From positions 1 to 46,433 of the forward strand of contig JAHJJD010000011.1 of assembly GCA_018822845.1 (NCBI GenBank): a stretch of 46,433 nt of DNA, in the 5' to 3' direction. The notes below the pieces were generated by a model. That model ran no database searches. It was not told where the DNA came from and saw only the letters and a program-made list of their open reading frames with translations. The stretch comes from Gammaproteobacteria bacterium. Its GTDB lineage: Bacteria > Pseudomonadota > Gammaproteobacteria > Thiotrichales > Thiotrichaceae. Below, piece by piece: positions 3,317-12,072 of the stretch (position 1 is the first letter of the stretch; each line of letters begins with the position of its first letter). The position numbers and the translations under genes were made by a program.

Positions 3317-5356
3317 ATGCAACATCAATACGGGTCATCAACACACTCCCCCCCGGCCACAGTCCGCAAACGCAACGGGTCAGAGGCAGAATTTGATGCC
3401 GGGAGAATCCACTCGGCCATTCTGCGTGCCGGGCAGGCAACAGGTGAATTTGGTGAGGACAAGGCCAGCCTGCTGACGGCGCAGGTCGTCAAGGTGCTGG
3501 GCCACAGCAACCGTGGCGTACCACCGGATATCGAGCGTATCCAGGATGTGGTCGAACAGGCACTGATCAGTGCCAATCACCTGAAAACAGCACGCACCTA
3601 TATCGTTTACCGCGAGCAGCATAAAAAACTGCGTAAAGACCGGCGCACGCTGGTGGATGTATCCAGTTCAATCAACGAATATCTTGAACGCGCCGACTGG
3701 CGGGTCAGCGCCAACGCCAACCAGGGTTACTCACTGGGTGGCCTGATCCTGAACACCTCCGGCAAGATGGTCGCCAACTACTGGCTGAACCATGTTTACG
3801 CCCCGGAGGCGGGTGAAGCACATCGCCAGGGCGATATCCATATCCATGACCTTGACATGCTGGCGGGCTACTGTGCTGGCTGGTCGCTGCGCACCCTGTT
3901 GCATGAAGGGCTGAATGGTGTGCCCGGCAAGGTCGAGGCCGCCCCGCCAAAGCATATGTCCTCCGCTGTCGGCCAGATCGTCAATTTCCTCGGCACACTA
4001 CAGAATGAATGGGCCGGTGCACAGGCATTCAGTTCCTTTGATACCTACATGGCACCATTCGTGCGCAAGGACAGGCTTGAATACGCAGAGGTGCGCCAAT
4101 ATATCCAGGAACTGATCTACAACCTCAACGTGCCGTCACGCTGGGGAACCCAAACCCCCTTTACCAACCTTACTTTCGACTGGGTTTGTCCCGAGGATTT
4201 GCGTGGACAGATACCCGTGATCGCTGGCGAAGAGATGCCATTCTCCTATGGTGACCTGCAAAGGGAAATGGATCTGATCAACCGCGCCTATATCGATGTC
4301 ATGACTGAAGGCGATGCGAAAGGCCGGGTGTTCACCTTCCCGATCCCGACTTACAACATCACGCCGGATTTTCCCTGGGACAGCGAAAATGCGGAACGGC
4401 TGTTTGCAATGACAGCCAAATACGGGTTGCCTTATTTCCAGAACTTCCTCAATTCCGAACTCAAGCCAAACATGGTGCGCTCCATGTGCTGTCGCCTGCA
4501 ACTTGACCTGCGTGAGTTGCTCAAACGTGGCAACGGGCTGTTCGGCTCGGCTGAACAGACGGGTTCGCTAGGTGTGGTCACCATCAACTGCGCGCGCCTT
4601 GGCTACCTGTACAAAGGTGACGAAGCCGGATTGATGCGGCGGCTTGACGAACTGCTGTCCATCGCACGCAACAGCCTGGAGGTCAAGCGCAAGGTAATCC
4701 AGCGGTTTATGGATGCGGGACTGTTCCCTTACACCAAACGCTATCTGGGTACCTTGCGCAATCACTTCTCCACCATCGGCGTCAATGGCATCAACGAGAT
4801 GATCCGTAATTTCAGCGATGATGGATACGACATCACCAGTAACCAGGGAAGCGCCTTCGCCGGACGCCTGCTGGATCATATCCGTGGGCGCATGGTGGCG
4901 TTTCAGGAGCAGACCGGCAACATGTACAACCTGGAGGCGACCCCGGCTGAGGGGACGACCTACCGCTTTGCCAGGGAAGACCGCAAGCGTTATCCCGGTA
5001 TCCTACAGGCGGGTACGTCCGGGCATCCTTACTACACCAACTCCTCACAACTGCCGGTGGGCTTTACTGACGACCCCTTTGCAGCACTGACGCACCAGGA
5101 ACCGCTGCAACAGAAATATACCGGTGGCACTGTGCTGCACCTGTACATGCGGGAGCGCATTTCCAGCACGGAAGCCTGCAAAAAGCTGGTGCGCCGCAGC
5201 CTGGAACGTTTCCGCCTGCCCTACCTGACCATTACCCCAACCTTTTCCATCTGCCCCAAACACGGTTATCTGGCCGGGGAACATGAGTTCTGCCCGCGCT
5301 GTGATGAAGAATTGTTACGAAAAAAACAGGAGGAATCCTTATGCAACAGCCATTGA
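3317..5356 (+). CDS. nrdD: Anaerobic ribonucleoside-triphosphate reductase, main part, without glycyl-radical motif
   Basis: NrdD reduces ribonucleoside triphosphates to deoxy forms in the absence of oxygen. The 679-residue product has an N-terminal ATP-cone (about 13-105, VRKRNGSEAEFD onward), the catalytic barrel with VRSMCCRLQLDLREL and GSLGVVTINCARLGYL, and a C-terminal metal site in which CPKHG and CPRC would supply the ligands. The first pair is Cys-His rather than the usual Cys-Cys. The protein stops 21 residues after the CPRC motif without the RVxGY glycyl-radical sequence that every working NrdD needs. That sequence is encoded in the overlapping small gene at 5341. AGGA precedes the ATG. 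NrdG would activate the complex. Confidence 0.92.
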   Translation: MQHQYGSSTHSPPATVRKRNGSEAEFDAGRIHSAILRAGQATGEFGEDKASLLTAQVVKVLGHSNRGVPPDIERIQDVVEQALISANHLKTARTYIVYREQHKKLRKDRRTLVDVSSSINEYLERADWRVSANANQGYSLGGLILNTSGKMVANYWLNHVYAPEAGEAHRQGDIHIHDLDMLAGYCAGWSLRTLLHEGLNGVPGKVEAAPPKHMSSAVGQIVNFLGTLQNEWAGAQAFSSFDTYMAPFVRKDRLEYAEVRQYIQELIYNLNVPSRWGTQTPFTNLTFDWVCPEDLRGQIPVIAGEEMPFSYGDLQREMDLINRAYIDVMTEGDAKGRVFTFPIPTYNITPDFPWDSENAERLFAMTAKYGLPYFQNFLNSELKPNMVRSMCCRLQLDLRELLKRGNGLFGSAEQTGSLGVVTINCARLGYLYKGDEAGLMRRLDELLSIARNSLEVKRKVIQRFMDAGLFPYTKRYLGTLRNHFSTIGVNGINEMIRNFSDDGYDITSNQGSAFAGRLLDHIRGRMVAFQEQTGNMYNLEATPAEGTTYRFAREDRKRYPGILQAGTSGHPYYTNSSQLPVGFTDDPFAALTHQEPLQQKYTGGTVLHLYMRERISSTEACKKLVRRSLERFRLPYLTITPTFSICPKHGYLAGEHEFCPRCDEELLRKKQEESLCNSH

Positions 5357-5559
5357 ACCCGCCATGCTTCGGCTTCGCTCAGCAATCGTCCCCCTTGCAA
5401 GACCACGAGCGCCAGCGTTGCGAAGTGTGGACGCGGGTGATGGGCTACCACCGCCCGGTCAGTTCATTCAACCCCGGCAAGCAAAGCGAACACGCTGAAC
5501 GCATCCCCTTTGTGGAAAACGCCCCCCGTCTGGAAGGAAAACGCCTGTGTTACAACTAG
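5341..5559 (+). CDS. nrdD: Separately encoded glycyl-radical domain of NrdD
   Basis: This 72-residue product contains QRCEVWTRVMGYHRPVSSFN, the C-terminal glycyl-radical segment normally fused to NrdD; the radical glycine would be Gly35. The gene is in the -1 frame relative to nrdD, overlaps its last 16 bases, and overlaps the nrdG start by 13 bases. A full AGGAGG (5328-5333) stands 7 bases before its ATG, which argues for independent translation rather than a damaged gene. The first 22 residues are a proline/glutamine-rich lead-in. It should fold onto the main NrdD subunit much as GrcA replaces the radical domain of pyruvate formate-lyase. An A7 run at 5320-5326 also leaves open a -1 frameshift fusion. 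Confidence 0.85.
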   Translation: MQQPLNPPCFGFAQQSSPLQDHERQRCEVWTRVMGYHRPVSSFNPGKQSEHAERIPFVENAPRLEGKRLCYN

Positions 5560-6164
5560 GCGGAATGGTTCCCCTGACCACCATCGACTTTCCGGGGCAT
5601 CTGGCGGCAGTGCTGTTCTGCCAGGGTTGCCCGTGGCATTGCCGCTATTGCCATAACCCACACTTGTTGCCCACCAATGTAGCGGGCAAAATCCCGTGGG
5701 CAGAGGTGATCAGCTTTTTGCAGGAACGTGTCGGGTTTCTGGATGGGGTGGTGTTCAGTGGCGGTGAGCCATTGCTACAGCCGCGCTTGCCGGAAGCCAT
5801 GCAGGCGGTGAAAGCCCTGGGATTCAAGGTTGCCCTGCACACGGCAGGCATTATCCCGGCACGGCTGGCAAAAGTCCTGCCGCTGGTGGACTGGGTGGGG
5901 CTGGACATCAAGGCCCCGCTCCATGCCTACAAAAGGGTCACGGGATTGGCAGGCAGCGGCTTCAAGGCGGAGGAAAGCCTGGATTTGCTGCTGGCTGCCC
6001 GGCATGTCGATTATGAAATCAGGACAACGGTTGACCCCGGCCTGTTGGGGGAGGTGGATATTCAACAATTGACGACCTTGCTGGCAAGGCGCGGGGTAAA
6101 GCGGCATGTGTTGCAGGATTGTCGGCCAGCATTAAATCTTGATAAATATCAACAATTACCCTAG
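5547..6164 (+). CDS. nrdG: Anaerobic ribonucleotide reductase activating enzyme (radical SAM)
   Basis: NrdG uses a [4Fe-4S] cluster and S-adenosylmethionine to create the glycyl radical on NrdD. The 205-residue product has the radical-SAM triad in FCQGCPWHCRYCHNP (CxxxCxxC, counted from GCPWHC) near residue 28, a GGEP motif in VVFSGGEPLLQ, and a continuing partial barrel. The length and the TTIDFPGHLAAVLF start match the NrdG2-type activases often paired with NrdD proteins of this kind. The start is GTG at 5547 with GGAAGG upstream, overlapping the small nrdD gene. An FNR-type box for the next operon lies inside its last 26 bases. Confidence 0.92.
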   Translation: MLQLGGMVPLTTIDFPGHLAAVLFCQGCPWHCRYCHNPHLLPTNVAGKIPWAEVISFLQERVGFLDGVVFSGGEPLLQPRLPEAMQAVKALGFKVALHTAGIIPARLAKVLPLVDWVGLDIKAPLHAYKRVTGLAGSGFKAEESLDLLLAARHVDYEIRTTVDPGLLGEVDIQQLTTLLARRGVKRHVLQDCRPALNLDKYQQLP

Positions 6165-6289: not shown

Positions 6290-6814
6290 ATGCAGTCACC
6301 AAATATGGGGCGGCGGGCATTTCTGCGAGGCAGCAGCCCGCGTTTCAGTCCATCCGCCATCCGCCCGCCGTGGGCTTTGCCGTTTGCCAGTTTCGTTGTG
6401 GCTTGTACGCGCTGTGATGACTGCATTCGTGCCTGCCCGCAACACATCCTGCAACGCGGCGATGGTGGCTACCCCGAACCCCGTTTCCACTCCGGCGAAT
6501 GCACCTTTTGCGGTGAATGCGCTGCGGTGTGCAAAGCTGGGGCATTCCAGCCGCCAGCACATACTCCGCGTGATGCCTGGAAGCTGGCAGTCAGCATTGC
6601 CCCCACCTGCCTATCCCTTAACGGGGTAGTGTGCCGTAGCTGTGGCGATCATTGTGATGCACACGCCATCCGCTTCCAGTTACAGACCCGCGCCATCGCC
6701 GTTCCCCATATTGACCCGGCAAGCTGTACCGGTTGCGGAGCCTGCCTGAGCGTTTGCCCGGTCAACGCCGTTGAAATCCAGAACATCTCCCATCAGGAGG
6801 AACAAGCCGCATGA
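6290..6814 (+). CDS. napF: Ferredoxin-type protein NapF
   Basis: NapF is a cytoplasmic iron-sulfur protein thought to help mature NapA. The 174-residue product has four cysteine clusters: CTRCDDCIRAC, CTFCGECAAVC, CRSCGDHCDAH and CTGCGACLSVC. The third departs from the standard spacing, as is common in NapF. The N-terminus contains GRRAFLRG, which looks twin-arginine-like but has no hydrophobic segment after it. It opens the nap operon and its stop overlaps the napD start as ATGA. Confidence 0.9.
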   Translation: MQSPNMGRRAFLRGSSPRFSPSAIRPPWALPFASFVVACTRCDDCIRACPQHILQRGDGGYPEPRFHSGECTFCGECAAVCKAGAFQPPAHTPRDAWKLAVSIAPTCLSLNGVVCRSCGDHCDAHAIRFQLQTRAIAVPHIDPASCTGCGACLSVCPVNAVEIQNISHQEEQAA

Positions 6815-7098
6815 CAGCCACTCCCAACACAGTCCTTGCCAATATCTGCGGCGTACTGGTGCATATCCGCCCGGAACAGCGCGCAACCATGGAACAGCAA
6901 TTGCTGACGATTCCCGGACTGGAAATCCACGCCGCCAATGAAGTCGGCAAACTGATTGTTACCGTGGAAGCCGACGACTACCAGCAGGCTGCCGACTCCC
7001 TGTCCCAGTTGCAAACCATGAAGGGCGTGCTGTCCGCCTCCCTGATCTACCACCATGCCGAAGAACTCGAAGTTACCCAGAGTGAGAGCCAACCATGA
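6811..7098 (+). CDS. napD: NapA signal-peptide chaperone NapD
   Basis: NapD binds the twin-arginine signal peptide of NapA and holds back export until the molybdenum cofactor is in place. The 95-residue protein has the small ferredoxin-like fold sequence pattern of the family, with [12 protein letters not shown] at the start and a [11 protein letters not shown] strand near residue 45. AGGAGG lies before its start, which overlaps napF; its end overlaps napA by 4 bases. The tail ([12 protein letters not shown]) is acidic. Confidence 0.9.
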
Positions 7099-9683
7099 AA
7101 CTGACACGCCGAGACTTTATCAAGACCAATGCCATCGCCGCGACGGCTGCCGCTGCGGGTATCTCCATTCCCTGGTTGAGCGCCAGGGCCGAAGACGCTG
7201 CTGAAGGCGACAAGGACATCCGCTGGGACAAGGCAGCCTGCCGTTTCTGCGGCACCGGCTGTTCGGTGCTGGTCGGGGTCAAGGATGGGCGCGTGGTCGC
7301 CAGCCAGGGCGACCCGGATGCGCCGGTCAACCGTGGCCTCAACTGTATCAAGGGTTACTTCCTGCCAAAAATCATGTACGGCAAGGATCGCCTGACCACG
7401 CCGATGCTGCGCAAAACCGGCGGCAAGTACGACAAGGAAGGCGAATTCACCCCGGTTTCCTGGGAAGAAGCTTTTGACATCATGGCCGAAAAATGGAAAG
7501 CCGCACTGAAAAAGGATCAGGAAATCAACAAGGGCAAGCCACCCGAAGAAATGGTTTCCACCATCGGCATGTTTGGCTCCGGGCAATGGACGGTGTGGGA
7601 AGGTTATGCCGCTTCCAAGCTGATGAAGGCTGGTTTCCGCTCCAATAACATCGACCCGAATGCGCGCCACTGCATGGCCTCAGCGGTAGCAGGCTTCATC
7701 CGCACTTTTGGCGCTGACGAGCCGATGGGCTGCTATGACGATCTGGAGCACGCCGATACTTTCGTGCTGTGGGGTTCCAACATGGCGGAAATGCACCCGA
7801 TCCTGTGGTCGCGCCTGACCGACCGCCGCCTGACCGGAAAAGATGTAAAGGTGCATGTGCTGTCCACCTACGAACACCGCAGTTTCGAGCTGGCAGATAA
7901 TGCGCTGGTGTTCAAGCCGCAGACTGACCTCGCCATCCTCAACTACATCGCCAACTACATCATCGAAAATGATGCGGTCAACAAGGACTTCATCGAAAAG
8001 CACGTCAACTTCATGCAGGGCGCAACCAACATCGGTTACGGTTTGCGCCCCAAGCATCCGCTGGAACAGGCATCCAATGCCAACGGCTACCCCGGCGAAG
8101 ACGGCAAGCCCAAGGGCAACCCCGGCAAGATGGATCCGATTGATTTCGAGGCGTACAAGAAATTCGTCAGCGAATACACCGTCGAAAAAGCCAGCGAACT
8201 GTCTGGCGTGCCGGTCGAAAACCTGGAAATGCTGGCCAAGGAATACGCCGACCCCAACCGCAAGGTGGTTTCCTACTGGACTATGGGTTTCAACCAGCAT
8301 ACCCGTGGCACCTGGGCGAATAACCTCGTCTACAACATACACCTGCTGACCGGCAAGATTTCCCAGCCGGGCAATGGGCCATTCTCCCTGACCGGGCAAC
8401 CTTCCGCCTGCGGCACAGCGCGGGAAGTCGGCACCTTCGCCCACCGCCTGCCTGCCGATCTGGTGGTGGACAAGAAGCCGCACCGTGACTTCGCCGAAAA
8501 AATCTGGGGGCTGCCAGAAGGTGCCATCCCCGGCAAGATTGGCTACCACGCAGTATTACAGAACCGGATGCTAAAGGACGGCAAGCTCAACGCCTACTGG
8601 GTACAGTGCACCAACAACATGCAGGCCGCCGCCAACATGAACGAGGAAGGCTGGCCGGGCTACCGTAACCCGGCCAACTTCATCGTGGTTTCCGACCCTT
8701 ACCCCACCGTTACCGCAATGGCCGCCGACCTGATCCTGCCCACCGCGATGTGGGTGGAAAAGGAAGGCGCATACGGCAACGCTGAACGCCGCACCCAGTT
8801 CTGGCGGCAACAGATCAATGCGCCGGGTGAGGCCCGATCCGACGTATGGCAGGTGGTGGAATTCTCCAAACGCTTCAAGGTCGAGGAGGCTTGGCCGGAA
8901 GAGCTGCTGGCGAAAAAACCGGAACTGCGCGGCAAGACCCTGTACGAAGTGCTGTACCGCAACGGCGCGGTGGACAAGTTCCCCAAACAGGAAGTGAAAG
9001 ACGACTCCGGCAACGTCTACGCCAACAAGGAGATGGAAGACTTCGGCTTCTACCTGCAAAAAGGTCTGTACGAAGAATACCGCCGCTTTACCCTGGAAGG
9101 GCCGAAAAAAGGCCACGACCTGGGCGAGTTCGACCACTACCACAAGGTGCGTGGCCTGCGCTGGCCGGTGGTGGACGGCAAGGAAACCCTGTGGCGTTAC
9201 CGTGAAGGCTTCGACCCATATGCTTCCGGCGCGGAAAAGGGCGATGTGGTGTTCTACGGCAACGAAGACGGCAAGGCCAAGATCATCGCCCTGCCCTACG
9301 AACCGCCTGCCGAATCGCCTGACAAGGAATTCCCGCTGTGGCTGTGCACCGGTCGCGTGCTGGAACACTGGCATTCCGGCTCCATGACCCGCCGCGTGCC
9401 TGAACTGTACCGGGCAGTGCCGGATGCGGAAGTGTTCATGAACCCGGATGACGCCAAGGAACTGGGGCTGCAACGCGGGATGCCGGTCAAGGTATCCAGC
9501 CGCCGGGGCGACATCGTGGCGCGGGTGGAAACCCGTGGGCGTAACAAGCCACCGCGCGGGCTGATTTTTGTGCCATGGTTCGACGCCAGCCGCCTGATCA
9601 ACAAGGTCACACTGGACGCTACCTGCCCGATTTCCAAGGAGACCGACTTCAAGAAGTGTGCGGTCAAGGTGGAAAAGGCATAA
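7095..9683 (+). CDS. napA: Periplasmic nitrate reductase catalytic subunit NapA
   Basis: NapA reduces nitrate to nitrite in the periplasm. The 862-residue protein starts with a twin-arginine signal (TRRDFIKT, followed by an alanine-rich hydrophobic run ending near SARA). The [4Fe-4S] motif is CRFCGTGC with a fourth cysteine in LNCIKGYF. The molybdenum ligand should be the cysteine in [12 protein letters not shown]. The molybdopterin guanine dinucleotide-binding segments, such as [15 protein letters not shown] and the C-terminal [15 protein letters not shown], are intact. Its length (E. coli NapA is about 828) includes a modest extra loop near residues 335-352. Electrons come from NapB, fed by NapC and possibly NapGH. 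Confidence 0.96.
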
Positions 9684-9692
9684 GGCACGAGC

Positions 9693-10541
9693 ATGGATAC
9701 CGCACGCCGCCAGTTTCTTCTCTCCACACTGAAGACAGCCAGTGCAGTCGGGCTGGGCGCTTTGGTGCTGGGGCTGTATAGCCGCCAGTCACGCGCCCTG
9801 CCCGCCCCTGCCCTGCGCCCGCCCGGTGCATTGGCGGAGGATGATTTTCTTGGCGCGTGCGTGCGCTGTGGTTTGTGTGTGCGGGATTGCCCCTATGACA
9901 CCCTGAAACTGGCGAAAGTGGGCGAAGCGGTGGCGCTGGGTACGCCCTATTTCACCGCCCGCGACATTCCCTGCGAGATGTGTGAAGACATTCCCTGTGT
10001 GAAAGCCTGCCCAACCGGGGCGCTGGATCATAACCTGACCGACATCAACCAGTCCCGCATGGGGTTGGCGGTGGTGATTGACCAGGAAGGTTGCATCGCC
10101 TTTCAGGGTTTGCGCTGCGAAGTTTGTTACAACGTCTGCCCGGTGCGCAGCAAGGCGATTACGCTGGAAAAGCAGCACAACGAGCGTACCGGCAAACACG
10201 CTTTCTTCATCCCGGTGGTGCATTCCAGCGATTGCACCGGCTGCGGAAAATGTGAGGAAGCCTGCATTGTCGACGGCGAAGCTGCTATCAAGGTCGTACC
10301 ACTCACGCTGGCGAAAGCGGGTGGTTCCGCCCATTACCGTTTCGGCTGGAAGGAAAAGGCGCGGGAAGGCAAGTCACTGGTCGCACCGGATACGGAGCAC
10401 CAGTACAACTTGCCGGAAGGGATGCGTTACGACTACGAAGGCAAGGGTTTGATTATTGACCCGCAGCCGCAGGAAGGTTTGCCAGTGGGCGATGTGCCAG
10501 CAGATGCGCTTGAATCGCTGAACAGGAAAGGAGCGCCGTGA
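9693..10541 (+). CDS. napG: Iron-sulfur protein NapG
   Basis: NapG is a periplasmic [4Fe-4S] protein that with NapH passes quinol electrons towards NapC/NapB. The 282-residue product has a twin-arginine signal (ARRQFLLS) and four cysteine clusters: CVRCGLCVRDC, CEMCEDIPCVKAC, CEVCYNVC with an earlier GCIAF cysteine, and CTGCGKCEEAC. It follows napA after 9 bases, and its TGA shares a base with the napH ATG. Confidence 0.93.
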   Translation: MDTARRQFLLSTLKTASAVGLGALVLGLYSRQSRALPAPALRPPGALAEDDFLGACVRCGLCVRDCPYDTLKLAKVGEAVALGTPYFTARDIPCEMCEDIPCVKACPTGALDHNLTDINQSRMGLAVVIDQEGCIAFQGLRCEVCYNVCPVRSKAITLEKQHNERTGKHAFFIPVVHSSDCTGCGKCEEACIVDGEAAIKVVPLTLAKAGGSAHYRFGWKEKAREGKSLVAPDTEHQYNLPEGMRYDYEGKGLIIDPQPQEGLPVGDVPADALESLNRKGAP

Positions 10542-11422
10542 TGGATAGGCAAAGAAGCTGGTGGCAAACGTACAAATACCTGCTGCTGCGCCGTATCAGC
10601 CAGATCGGTATTTTGCTGCTGTTTCTGCTCAGCCCGTGGATCGCGCAACAAACCGGGGTGTGGGTGATGAAAGGCAACCTCGCTTCCAGCCTGACGCTGG
10701 GAATGTTGCCGCTAACTGATCCTTATGTGCTGATGCAATCCATTCTTGCCGGACAATGGCCGGTCAGTACCGCTTTCATCGGCGCGGCGATTGTGCTGGT
10801 TTTCTACCTGCTGGTGGGTGGCCGGGTGTATTGCAGTTGGGCGTGCCCGATCAATATGGTGACGGATGCAGCGGCATGGTTGCGTACCCGCCTCAATATC
10901 AAGGGTGGCGCGCATCTGGGGCGGGAAACCCGTTACTGGATTCTGGGTTTCACCCTGCTGCTGGCGCTGCTGACCGGCACGATTGCCTGGGAGCTGGTTA
11001 ACCCGGTGTCAATGGTGTTCCGGGGGCTGGTGTTCGGCATCGGGCTGGGCTGGGGCGTAATCCTGGCGGTCTTCCTGCTGGATTTGCTGGTCAGACGTCA
11101 TGCCTGGTGCGGGAGTTTGTGTCCGGTGGGTGCGTTTTACAGCCTGCTGGGTGAAGGCAGTTTGTTGCGCGTCAGCGCTTACCAGCGGGCGCAGTGTGAT
11201 GACTGCATGGATTGTTTCAAGGTTTGCCCCGAGCCGCAGGTGATCAAGCTGCCGCTCAAGGGCGAAACCAAAGGCGTTGGCCCGGTGATTACCTCGGGAC
11301 AATGCACCAATTGCGGGCGCTGCATCGATGTGTGCGCCAAAGATGTTTTCCGGTTTGATGTGCGTATGCACAATGCTACTCACAACGTACTTGCCAAAGA
11401 AGTGAAAGAGGTCGTGTCATGA
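10541..11422 (+). CDS. napH: Membrane quinol dehydrogenase component NapH
   Basis: NapH is an inner-membrane protein with four predicted helices and cytoplasmic iron-sulfur clusters. The 293-residue product has membrane segments near residues 19-38, 73-95, 130-150 and 165-185. The conserved CSWACPINMV and CGSLCPVGAF loops are present, as are two ferredoxin motifs, CDDCMDCFKVC and CTNCGRCIDVC. A GTG at 10538 is also possible, but ATG at 10541 has the better distance (7 bases) to AGGAG. The end overlaps napB by 4 bases. Confidence 0.93.
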   Translation: MDRQRSWWQTYKYLLLRRISQIGILLLFLLSPWIAQQTGVWVMKGNLASSLTLGMLPLTDPYVLMQSILAGQWPVSTAFIGAAIVLVFYLLVGGRVYCSWACPINMVTDAAAWLRTRLNIKGGAHLGRETRYWILGFTLLLALLTGTIAWELVNPVSMVFRGLVFGIGLGWGVILAVFLLDLLVRRHAWCGSLCPVGAFYSLLGEGSLLRVSAYQRAQCDDCMDCFKVCPEPQVIKLPLKGETKGVGPVITSGQCTNCGRCIDVCAKDVFRFDVRMHNATHNVLAKEVKEVVS

Positions 11423-12072
11423 AAAAAAGCTTTATCCTGAACATTGTTCTCAGCCTGGCGTTAAGCAGCATGTCTGCCGCCCTGTTCGCTGACGACGCGG
11501 CCAAAGATGCCAAACCGGCAGAAGCGGCAACAGCGCCAGCAGCGGAAACAACCACCCCGGCAGTGGATGCGCCAGCAGCAGAAAGCGCGCCTGCTGAACA
11601 AACGGCGGCAACGGATGCAACGGCTACCGATGCGGCAGCCCCGGCAGCAGCAGCCAGTGATGTCAACGCCAGTGCTGCGCCCAAAGAGGTATTTGCCTTT
11701 GATGGCCAGGTCATTGAAATCGGCGGTGCCGCCCCGGATGCTGACAGTGCAATTCCGGATAACAAACGCTGGTCAGACAGCGAAGTCGTTGACCGCAACT
11801 ACTTCCAGCAGCCGCCGATGATCCCGCACAAGGTGGAGGAATACCGCATCACCGCCAACAATAACAAGTGCATGTCCTGCCATAGCTGGGACAATTACAA
11901 GAAAAACAACGCCACCAAGATCAGCCAGACCCACTTTAAGGATCGTGATGGCAAGGACCATTCCAGCCTGGCTGCCCGCCGTTATTTCTGCAACCAGTGC
12001 CATGTGCCGCAGGTTGATGCCCCGCCGCTGGTGGAAAACGAGTTCAAGCCCGTGAAGGAACTGAACAAATAA
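11419..12072 (+). CDS. napB: Dihaem cytochrome NapB with a long Ala/Pro-rich linker
   Basis: NapB is the periplasmic electron donor to NapA. The 217-residue protein has a signal peptide (cleavage near LFA-DDA), and haem-binding CMSCH (151-155) and CNQCH (191-195) set in the usual NapB surroundings. Axial histidines are available in PHKVEEY and THFKD. Between the signal peptide and the NapB domain is a low-complexity stretch of about 63 residues (25-88) made almost only of Ala, Pro, Thr, Glu and Asp. As I recall, ordinary NapB proteins are about 50-60 residues shorter and lack this. The linker might tether or extend the domain. Haem attachment depends on the ccm genes downstream. Confidence 0.92.
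   Translation: MKKSFILNIVLSLALSSMSAALFADDAAKDAKPAEAATAPAAETTTPAVDAPAAESAPAEQTAATDATATDAAAPAAAASDVNASAAPKEVFAFDGQVIEIGGAAPDADSAIPDNKRWSDSEVVDRNYFQQPPMIPHKVEEYRITANNNKCMSCHSWDNYKKNNATKISQTHFKDRDGKDHSSLAARRYFCNQCHVPQVDAPPLVENEFKPVKELNK

Follow-up and report, generated by a model that had tools for sequence, protein, structure and literature searches.

A probable two-chain class III ribonucleotide reductase with its glycyl-radical domain encoded by a separate small gene

Class III ribonucleotide reductase (RNR) is described, in the parts of the literature that were accessible, as a single NrdD chain plus an activase. The locus analyzed in the present study raises the question of how such an enzyme might operate when the chain recognizable as NrdD does not contain the radical loop. 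The window, i.e. the whole stretch of 46,433 nucleotides from a member of the Thiotrichaceae (assembly GCA_018822845.1, contig JAHJJD010000011.1), carries an nrdD core gene, a very short gene and nrdG in succession (Table 1). The original prediction held that the main NrdD lacks RVxGY, that a 72-residue gene with its own AGGAGG encodes this motif, and that the radical of a two-chain enzyme accordingly sits on a small detachable subunit. The first two statements are borne out by the reading frames, since RVxGY is absent from the main ORF and the C-terminal loop is present on the separate chain; the third is supported by the comparative evidence presented below, with the biochemistry inferred.

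Table 1. Features of the nrdD-nrdG locus (positions are those of the window)
Feature	Position	Strand	Remarks
nrdD core	3317..5356	+	679 aa; ATP-cone, NRDD barrel and zinc motif; without glycyl-radical loop
Zinc-ribbon-like motif at end of core, C646-P-K-H-G-Y ... C659-P-R-C662	5252..5302	+	read from sequence
A7 run at junction, sole slippery-looking element	5320..5326	+	missing from same-genus relatives
Shine-Dalgarno AGGAGG of GRD gene	5328..5333	+	7 nt before ATG
Stand-alone glycyl-radical domain (GRD) gene	5341..5559	+	72 aa; RVMGY; PF13597 profile 530-560
Predicted radical glycine codon GGC (G35 of small chain, RVMGY)	5443..5445	+	sequence
nrdG2, radical-SAM activase	5547..6164	+	205 aa; start GTG 5547; TIGR02495

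Several features of the window place the locus among class III systems. First, the main ORF matches positions 2-529 of the 562-position profile PF13597 with 582.9 bits and the small ORF matches the remainder with 32.7 bits; both exceed the curated cut-off of 26.2 bits, and the two thus represent complementary pieces of one profile. Second, the core contains an ATP-cone (PF03477, residues 15-104, 73.8 bits), scores 1132.7 bits against the PRK08270 model, which is covered to position 658 of 684, and matches 4coi, 4u3e, 8p23 and 1h78 in phmmer searches. The zinc motif (residues 646-662) aligns with that of fused homologues, and zinc binding by C646...C662 is inferred without binding data. Third, the small protein retains RCEVWTRVMGYHRP...N-x-G-K, and the radical-glycine column is invariant among 28 aligned GRDs. 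At E 0.1, the only Pfam family matched by the small chain was NRDD (PF13597), i.e. not the Gly_radical domain of the pyruvate formate-lyase (PFL) type, and a PDB search with the GRD profile returned no match at the same threshold. The activase is of the NrdG2 type (201.9 bits against a cut-off of 131.15). With the NRDD domain, ATP-cone, RVxGY loop, zinc motif and linked NrdG, the window therefore qualifies as a class III NrdD locus. The GRD gene shares 16 nt with the preceding core ORF and 13 nt with the following nrdG. Immediately after nrdG, at 6290-12072, comes what looks like a cluster for periplasmic nitrate reductase (ferredoxin-type protein, NapD, NapA-type molybdopterin oxidoreductase, two more Fe-S proteins and NapB; NapD, NapA-type and NapB by Pfam), and the locus therefore fits anaerobic growth on nitrate. 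A Sulfuricurvum plasmid (L019) likewise has a split nrdD-nrdG followed by napA.

Herein, we propose that the locus encodes a two-chain class III (anaerobic) RNR, composed of an NrdD core and a GRD subunit and activated by NrdG. We consider this explanation highly probable, in the absence of any protein-level data. The gene arrangement itself is observed, and the GRD is most likely an obligate, detachable subunit of the core, the biochemistry being untested. The large chain would provide the ATP-cone, the catalytic barrel with its cysteines and the zinc motif, and the 72-aa chain would provide the radical glycine loop and the C-terminal tail; the three overlapping genes have separate starts. 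NrdG, a radical SAM enzyme, would most likely set the radical on the small-chain glycine, and the small chain is inferred to dock during or after this activation. The docked loop in the barrel would then allow the glycyl radical to oxidize an active-site cysteine, like the fused domain of known NrdD; in the Prevotella copri enzyme, a zinc site in the GRD precedes the buried loop that bears the radical glycine (PMC11226230, in its accessible part). Complex formation, radical transfer and NTP reduction are inferred for the split enzyme. Because the GRD is a separate and cheap polypeptide, a copy cleaved by oxygen might in principle be exchanged for a new one while the core is retained, and this exchange is also an inference.

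An indication of function comes from Cupriavidus necator. The H16 locus is split into a 676-aa core and a 66-aa GRD, 142 nt apart and listed as separate CDS in RefSeq, and NrdDG of this strain is described as indispensable for complete denitrification (PMC2864759, a source available in part, citing Siedow 1999). Therefore, the split enzyme appears to work in vivo, with the reservation that the accessible statement covers NrdDG as a whole and does not single out the small gene. The available portion of the same paper assigns Rmet_5137 and Rmet_5139 to NrdDG in strain CH34 and skips the intermediate number; at the CH34 locus (L102), the GRD is located within its own 202-codon frame.

A fused protein might still be made from the split frames, through programmed -1 frameshifting on the A7 run or through stop-codon readthrough, and the small ORF would then merely be a C-terminal extension. 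The A7 run is indeed placed to shift the core into the GRD frame, and in G348 and G416, which belong to a different NrdD subtype, readthrough is possible because core and GRD share one frame with a single in-frame TAG and a weak Shine-Dalgarno sequence (SD). However, the run is absent from same-genus relatives, and the junctions elsewhere do not show the constant frame relation and conserved slip site that programmed frameshifting demands. Among 100 junctions read out of 103 cores without an attached GRD (near-copies included), all three relative frames were used (27, 40 and 33), and the distance from the end of the core to the start of the small gene ranged from -41 to 410 nt, with a median of 31 nt and 18 overlaps. 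The FRAMESHIFTING reading was rejected on the same free variation of frames and spacings in these 100 junctions. One to three stops separated core and GRD at all 25 same-frame junctions read, which argues against readthrough. The small genes start with ATG (98) or GTG (2), and an SD of at least 4 nt precedes 98 of the 100, compared with 13 of the 109 ATGs that lie out of frame in these stretches; L005 belongs to the two small genes without one. The start was picked partly by its SD, which favours this result, though hardly to this extent. Physical separation of the genes was also observed: in G365, a GRD-nrdG pair lies 9 kb away from the core, the genes in the interval being, on visual inspection, U32 peptidase (ubiU/ubiV-like), hemN-like and FNR-like, and GRDs exist without any core. 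The continued synthesis of a fused chain is thus very unlikely, and independence of frame and spacing is an observed property of the split genes.

The small protein might instead be a GrcA-like repair factor, with the core obtaining its radical in some other way. This question bears on the likeness to GrcA drawn in the original prediction. GrcA/YfiD and T4 Y06I are, like the window GRD, small free GRD proteins acting in trans with a large core; the autonomous glycyl radical cofactors of PFL work in trans (PMC12338860), and T4-like vs.6 matches the Gly_radical domain (PMC1524935), as far as the accessible text of these papers goes. Extra stand-alone GRD copies were, moreover, found in prophages and plasmids. 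However, GrcA rescues an enzyme that owns a radical domain by substituting for its damaged GRD, whereas the window core has no glycine to be rescued and the window GRD, of the NrdD type rather than the PFL type, is the sole GRD: a PF13597 search of the window genome returned two matches, the core and the small ORF, and no second GRD. Fused homologues, in addition, show the same GRD as the enzyme's own domain. With no radical glycine in the core itself, the host GRD is no spare part. The comparison with GrcA therefore does not hold for the host GRD and better suits the GRDs of prophages, plasmids and viruses, and we regard a pure repair role at this locus as very unlikely.

Natural fusions were observed, and they connect the two chains. 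One fused gene of the Chromatiaceae sample (L232), with a core of 83% identity, runs from CPEC into the GRD without a linker. In four others (L017, L072, L085 and L090), roughly 10-18 additional residues stand between the zinc motif and the radical loop; therefore, the break falls in a tolerant loop between these two elements. The fused L090 aligns through the GRD to the Thermotoga maritima structures, 4coi included. Its AlphaFold model has a mean pLDDT of 65.3, and docking remains without structural support because block means over the last 53 residues are only 27-58. In a tree of 101 of the 113 cores, four changes between fused and split forms were needed. The fused forms are basal, the split extends through most of one large clade, and the fused Acidiphilium and Parvularculaceae/Maricaulis sequences are nested within this clade. 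The tree was built by a quick method in which some long branches meet, and the fused L232 and other cores were lost to length and trimming filters.

The split recurs in the relatives of the window genome. This NrdD was found at E 1e-50 in 9 of 57 related genomes, the window's own counted, and 5 of the 15 same-genus relatives searched carry it, all in split form (G002 twice, G005, G007, G010 and G015). The overlap is 16 nt wherever measured in the genus (window, L006, L007, L008 and L011). In two relatives from other families (genomes G042 and G055; loci L003 and L004), the genes are separate, with their own SD and gaps of 28 and 25 nt, and a third such relative (L009) is fused. The dN/dS ratio of the small ORF ranges from 0.05 to 0.36 and is below 0.4 in all 15 pairs of six genus copies, the lowest ratios being saturated because three of the five comparisons involving L008 have dS above 1; the small ORF is under purifying selection. 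Sequencing or assembly error, or pseudogene decay, cutting one nrdD in two can draw on the homopolymer at the junction, the 130 contigs of the window genome, the ambiguous N in the same stretch of G005 (L005), which puts core and GRD in one frame with a stop still between them, and the G007 core found in two pieces, but is practically untenable, because independent genomes share the arrangement with different junction sequences, relatives without A7 are also split, often as non-overlapping genes, dN/dS is low and the SD is conserved. The split is thus no artefact, and assembly error, pseudogene and programmed frameshifting were all rejected on the relatives, dN/dS, junction frames and in-frame stops.

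Two further observations concern the genus copies. A 21-nt repeat-like in-frame insertion near the GRD N-terminus is present in the window (5367-5383), L005 and L006, with a core like CTTCGGCTTCGCTCAGC; the 17-base core has no match in the window except itself. Compared with L005-L008, L055, L068, L075, L116, L117 and L032, the window core is a mosaic. To approximately residue 500 it is nearer to Chromatiales-like homologues than to the copies of its own genus, and the last stretch, above all residues 651-679 (79-90% versus 45-62%), matches the genus copies. Judged from these alignments, the core may have been exchanged while the 3' end and the GRD gene were kept.

The proposed two-chain enzyme resembles, and departs from, several known systems. 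The barrel, zinc motif and RVxGY-type loop are shared with the NrdD-NrdG systems of T4, T. maritima (4coi/4u3e) and P. copri (8p23), and the ATP-cone of P. copri NrdD and the adjacent radical-SAM activase of class III systems are also found at the window. In the solved NrdD enzymes, however, the GRD lies within the NrdD chain, whereas it is a second polypeptide here. The split class II RNR of Pseudomonas aeruginosa, NrdJa/NrdJb (PMC9669993 and PMC4009431, both available in part), likewise comprises two consecutive genes, with the C-terminal domains on a small chain. Class II RNR depends on adenosylcobalamin and works without a stable protein radical (PMC3019208, accessible part), so the NrdJ small chain is no radical carrier. 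Six split nrdD genes are reported among 128 phage genomes with RNR genes (PMC3653736). According to the available portions of the sources, breaks in phage nrdD and nrdA are sporadic and mostly ascribed to introns, inteins and homing endonucleases; unlike these pieces, the window split has no intervening element and falls at a conserved domain boundary.

How widespread is the arrangement? When named genomes were scanned with an eight-GRD alignment, at least 569 confirmed places were returned. The best 80 of these, together with eight plasmid loci chosen from 29 records, were classified: 83 of the 88 loci are split, 4 are fused (Acidiphilium, Parvularculaceae, Maricaulis and Marinicaulis) and 1 is a lone GRD, with nrdG downstream at 87. 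These figures are no census because the loci chosen were those most similar to the window GRD. Less biased samples were searched with PF13597. Among 398 Pseudomonadota genomes, 57 matched: 13 are split like the window, 41 give one unbroken match (fused), 2 have the other NrdD subtype (G348 and G416) and 1 is a weak fragment (G389). The split is therefore not general to NrdD, several other lineages of which retain a fused GRD.

Within particular families, the split form prevails. In the Pseudomonadaceae sample (99 genomes, the family of Pseudomonas indica), 37 genomes have nrdD and all 36 readable genomes are split, one at a contig end being left out; four genomes with an apparent single match have a stop between core and GRD. 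In the Chromatiaceae sample (96 genomes, the family of a Thiorhodovibrio MAG), 57 have nrdD and 52 of 53 readable genomes are split, G483 being fused and four cut by contig ends (G477, G496, G499 and G551) being left out. Most calls in these two samples were made from match rows, and the 25 same-frame and two abutting junctions (G467 and G555) were read. G477 and G499 were rejected as GRD-less exceptions since their contigs break off at the core stop or no more than 135 nt from it; fusion in G199 and others was rejected on stops in the DNA, and G264 (L230), doubtful at first, proved to be split on reading. The conservation of the arrangement is thus observed, and split NrdD appears, from genome sequences, to be present in a large part of the proteobacteria. 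Split nrdD is expected in P. aeruginosa from its family and has not been shown there. A Dnr-box pattern, taken from the accessible part of PMC5645315 as a means of recognizing P. aeruginosa, gave no match when six large genomes of Pseudomonadaceae and a further three loci were searched.

Other variants were noted in these surveys. Split nrdD occurs in MAGs labelled Thermoflexus (Chloroflexota) and Omnitrophota (L022 and L034); the Thermoflexus-labelled MAG is probably mis-binned, its sequence sitting among Rhodocyclaceae-like ones. Large, intein-like inserts that keep the reading frame were observed around profile position 156-158 in the cores of G478, G485, G492, G494, G518, G532, G538, G549, G550, G552 and Thiomargarita G458; the insert of G518 measures about 310 aa. 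The different NrdD subtype also looks split in G348 and G416 (L236 and L106), with TAG and a new ATG between the two parts in one frame, and in G716, which has separate core and GRD matches; two relatives of the same family are fused.

Lone GRDs were also observed in phages, prophages and plasmids. In the Chromatiaceae sample, G486 and G516 each have one GRD beside the core and two elsewhere, and all four additional copies have phage genes in their vicinity (portal, minor head, major head, neck, tail and endolysin). G532 has a further GRD on a second contig, with the same match coordinates as in plasmid pAt1 of Allochromatium tepidum, and an A. vinosum plasmid carries one GRD alone. Two scans of IMG/VR gave 108 loci, comprising 71 lone GRDs (five records counted twice), 20 too near a contig end, 9 missed by the pattern, 5 fused, 2 with the core elsewhere and 1 split. 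The nine missed loci keep the glycine, eight in frames of 44-107 aa and L208 in one of 277 aa, in which a core was not checked for; glycine retention in lone GRDs is partly built in because the loci were found by motifs around it. All 50 IMG/VR records searched whole (6.8-108 kb), which may be fragments, contain one PF13597 match, the GRD alone. Phage structural genes lie near the GRD at 7 of 8 loci checked; the virus contigs L120, L158 and L174 carry tail fibre, virion structural, major head or terminase genes, and L154 carries a gene for a DNA methyltransferase, a weak match to a transcription regulator and families without known function. These lone GRDs were drawn from IMG/VR, prophages and plasmids and not from INPHARED (50,697 records), where the window GRD found nothing at E 1e-3; two further queries yielded 3 and 10 matches, all of them weak (best E 2e-4, unread). 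Some of these bear the annotation phage NrdD, and one is a hypothetical protein from a Gordonia phage.

When five phage GRDs were compared with the PHROG families, four matched phrog_4132, whose function is unknown, and the prophage GRD of L114 matched none; positions ~111-155 of the phrog_4132 profile match the NrdD-type glycyl-radical domain. Many phage and prophage GRDs (L113, L114, L115, L128, L134, L140, L148, L165, L179 and L185) have an extra cysteine-rich N-terminal segment missing from aligned host GRDs, perhaps a zinc ribbon in place of the core's. We hypothesize, with somewhat more belief than doubt, that a lone NrdD-type GRD of a phage or prophage plugs into the split host core and replaces the host GRD. 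Such action is inferred by analogy with PFL and T4 Y06I, which restores oxygen-fragmented PFL according to the title of Wagner 2001, cited in the accessible part of PMC12338860.

To date, no description of a split NrdD with a separate bacterial GRD, or of lone NrdD GRDs in phages, was found in the accessible parts of the open-access literature, subscription papers being excluded. The word "split" is absent from the RNRdb paper of 2009, and the available portions of the P. aeruginosa papers PMC5645315 and PMC4860495 mention nrdD and nrdG only. The expectation that split forms may exist in databases proved correct, as the small gene has an entry of its own, a short nrdD, in RefSeq-derived annotation. 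The sequence fact is thus already in databases; the class III RNR variant recognized here is conserved and widespread, with an unexpected viral extension.

The two-chain reading has several consequences. Work naming nrdD and nrdG alone would miss the predicted radical subunit, and nrdD-nrdG constructs without the small gene should be inactive. A swappable radical subunit makes GRD docking, dATP control and the repair of oxygen damage by exchange testable. Moreover, the lone phage GRDs suggest a viral use of this exchange and give phrog_4132 a probable function; if the hypothesis is true, a gene of about 44-100 codons would suffice for a phage to re-arm the anaerobic dNTP supply of the host, or to take it over, without carrying nrdD or nrdG.
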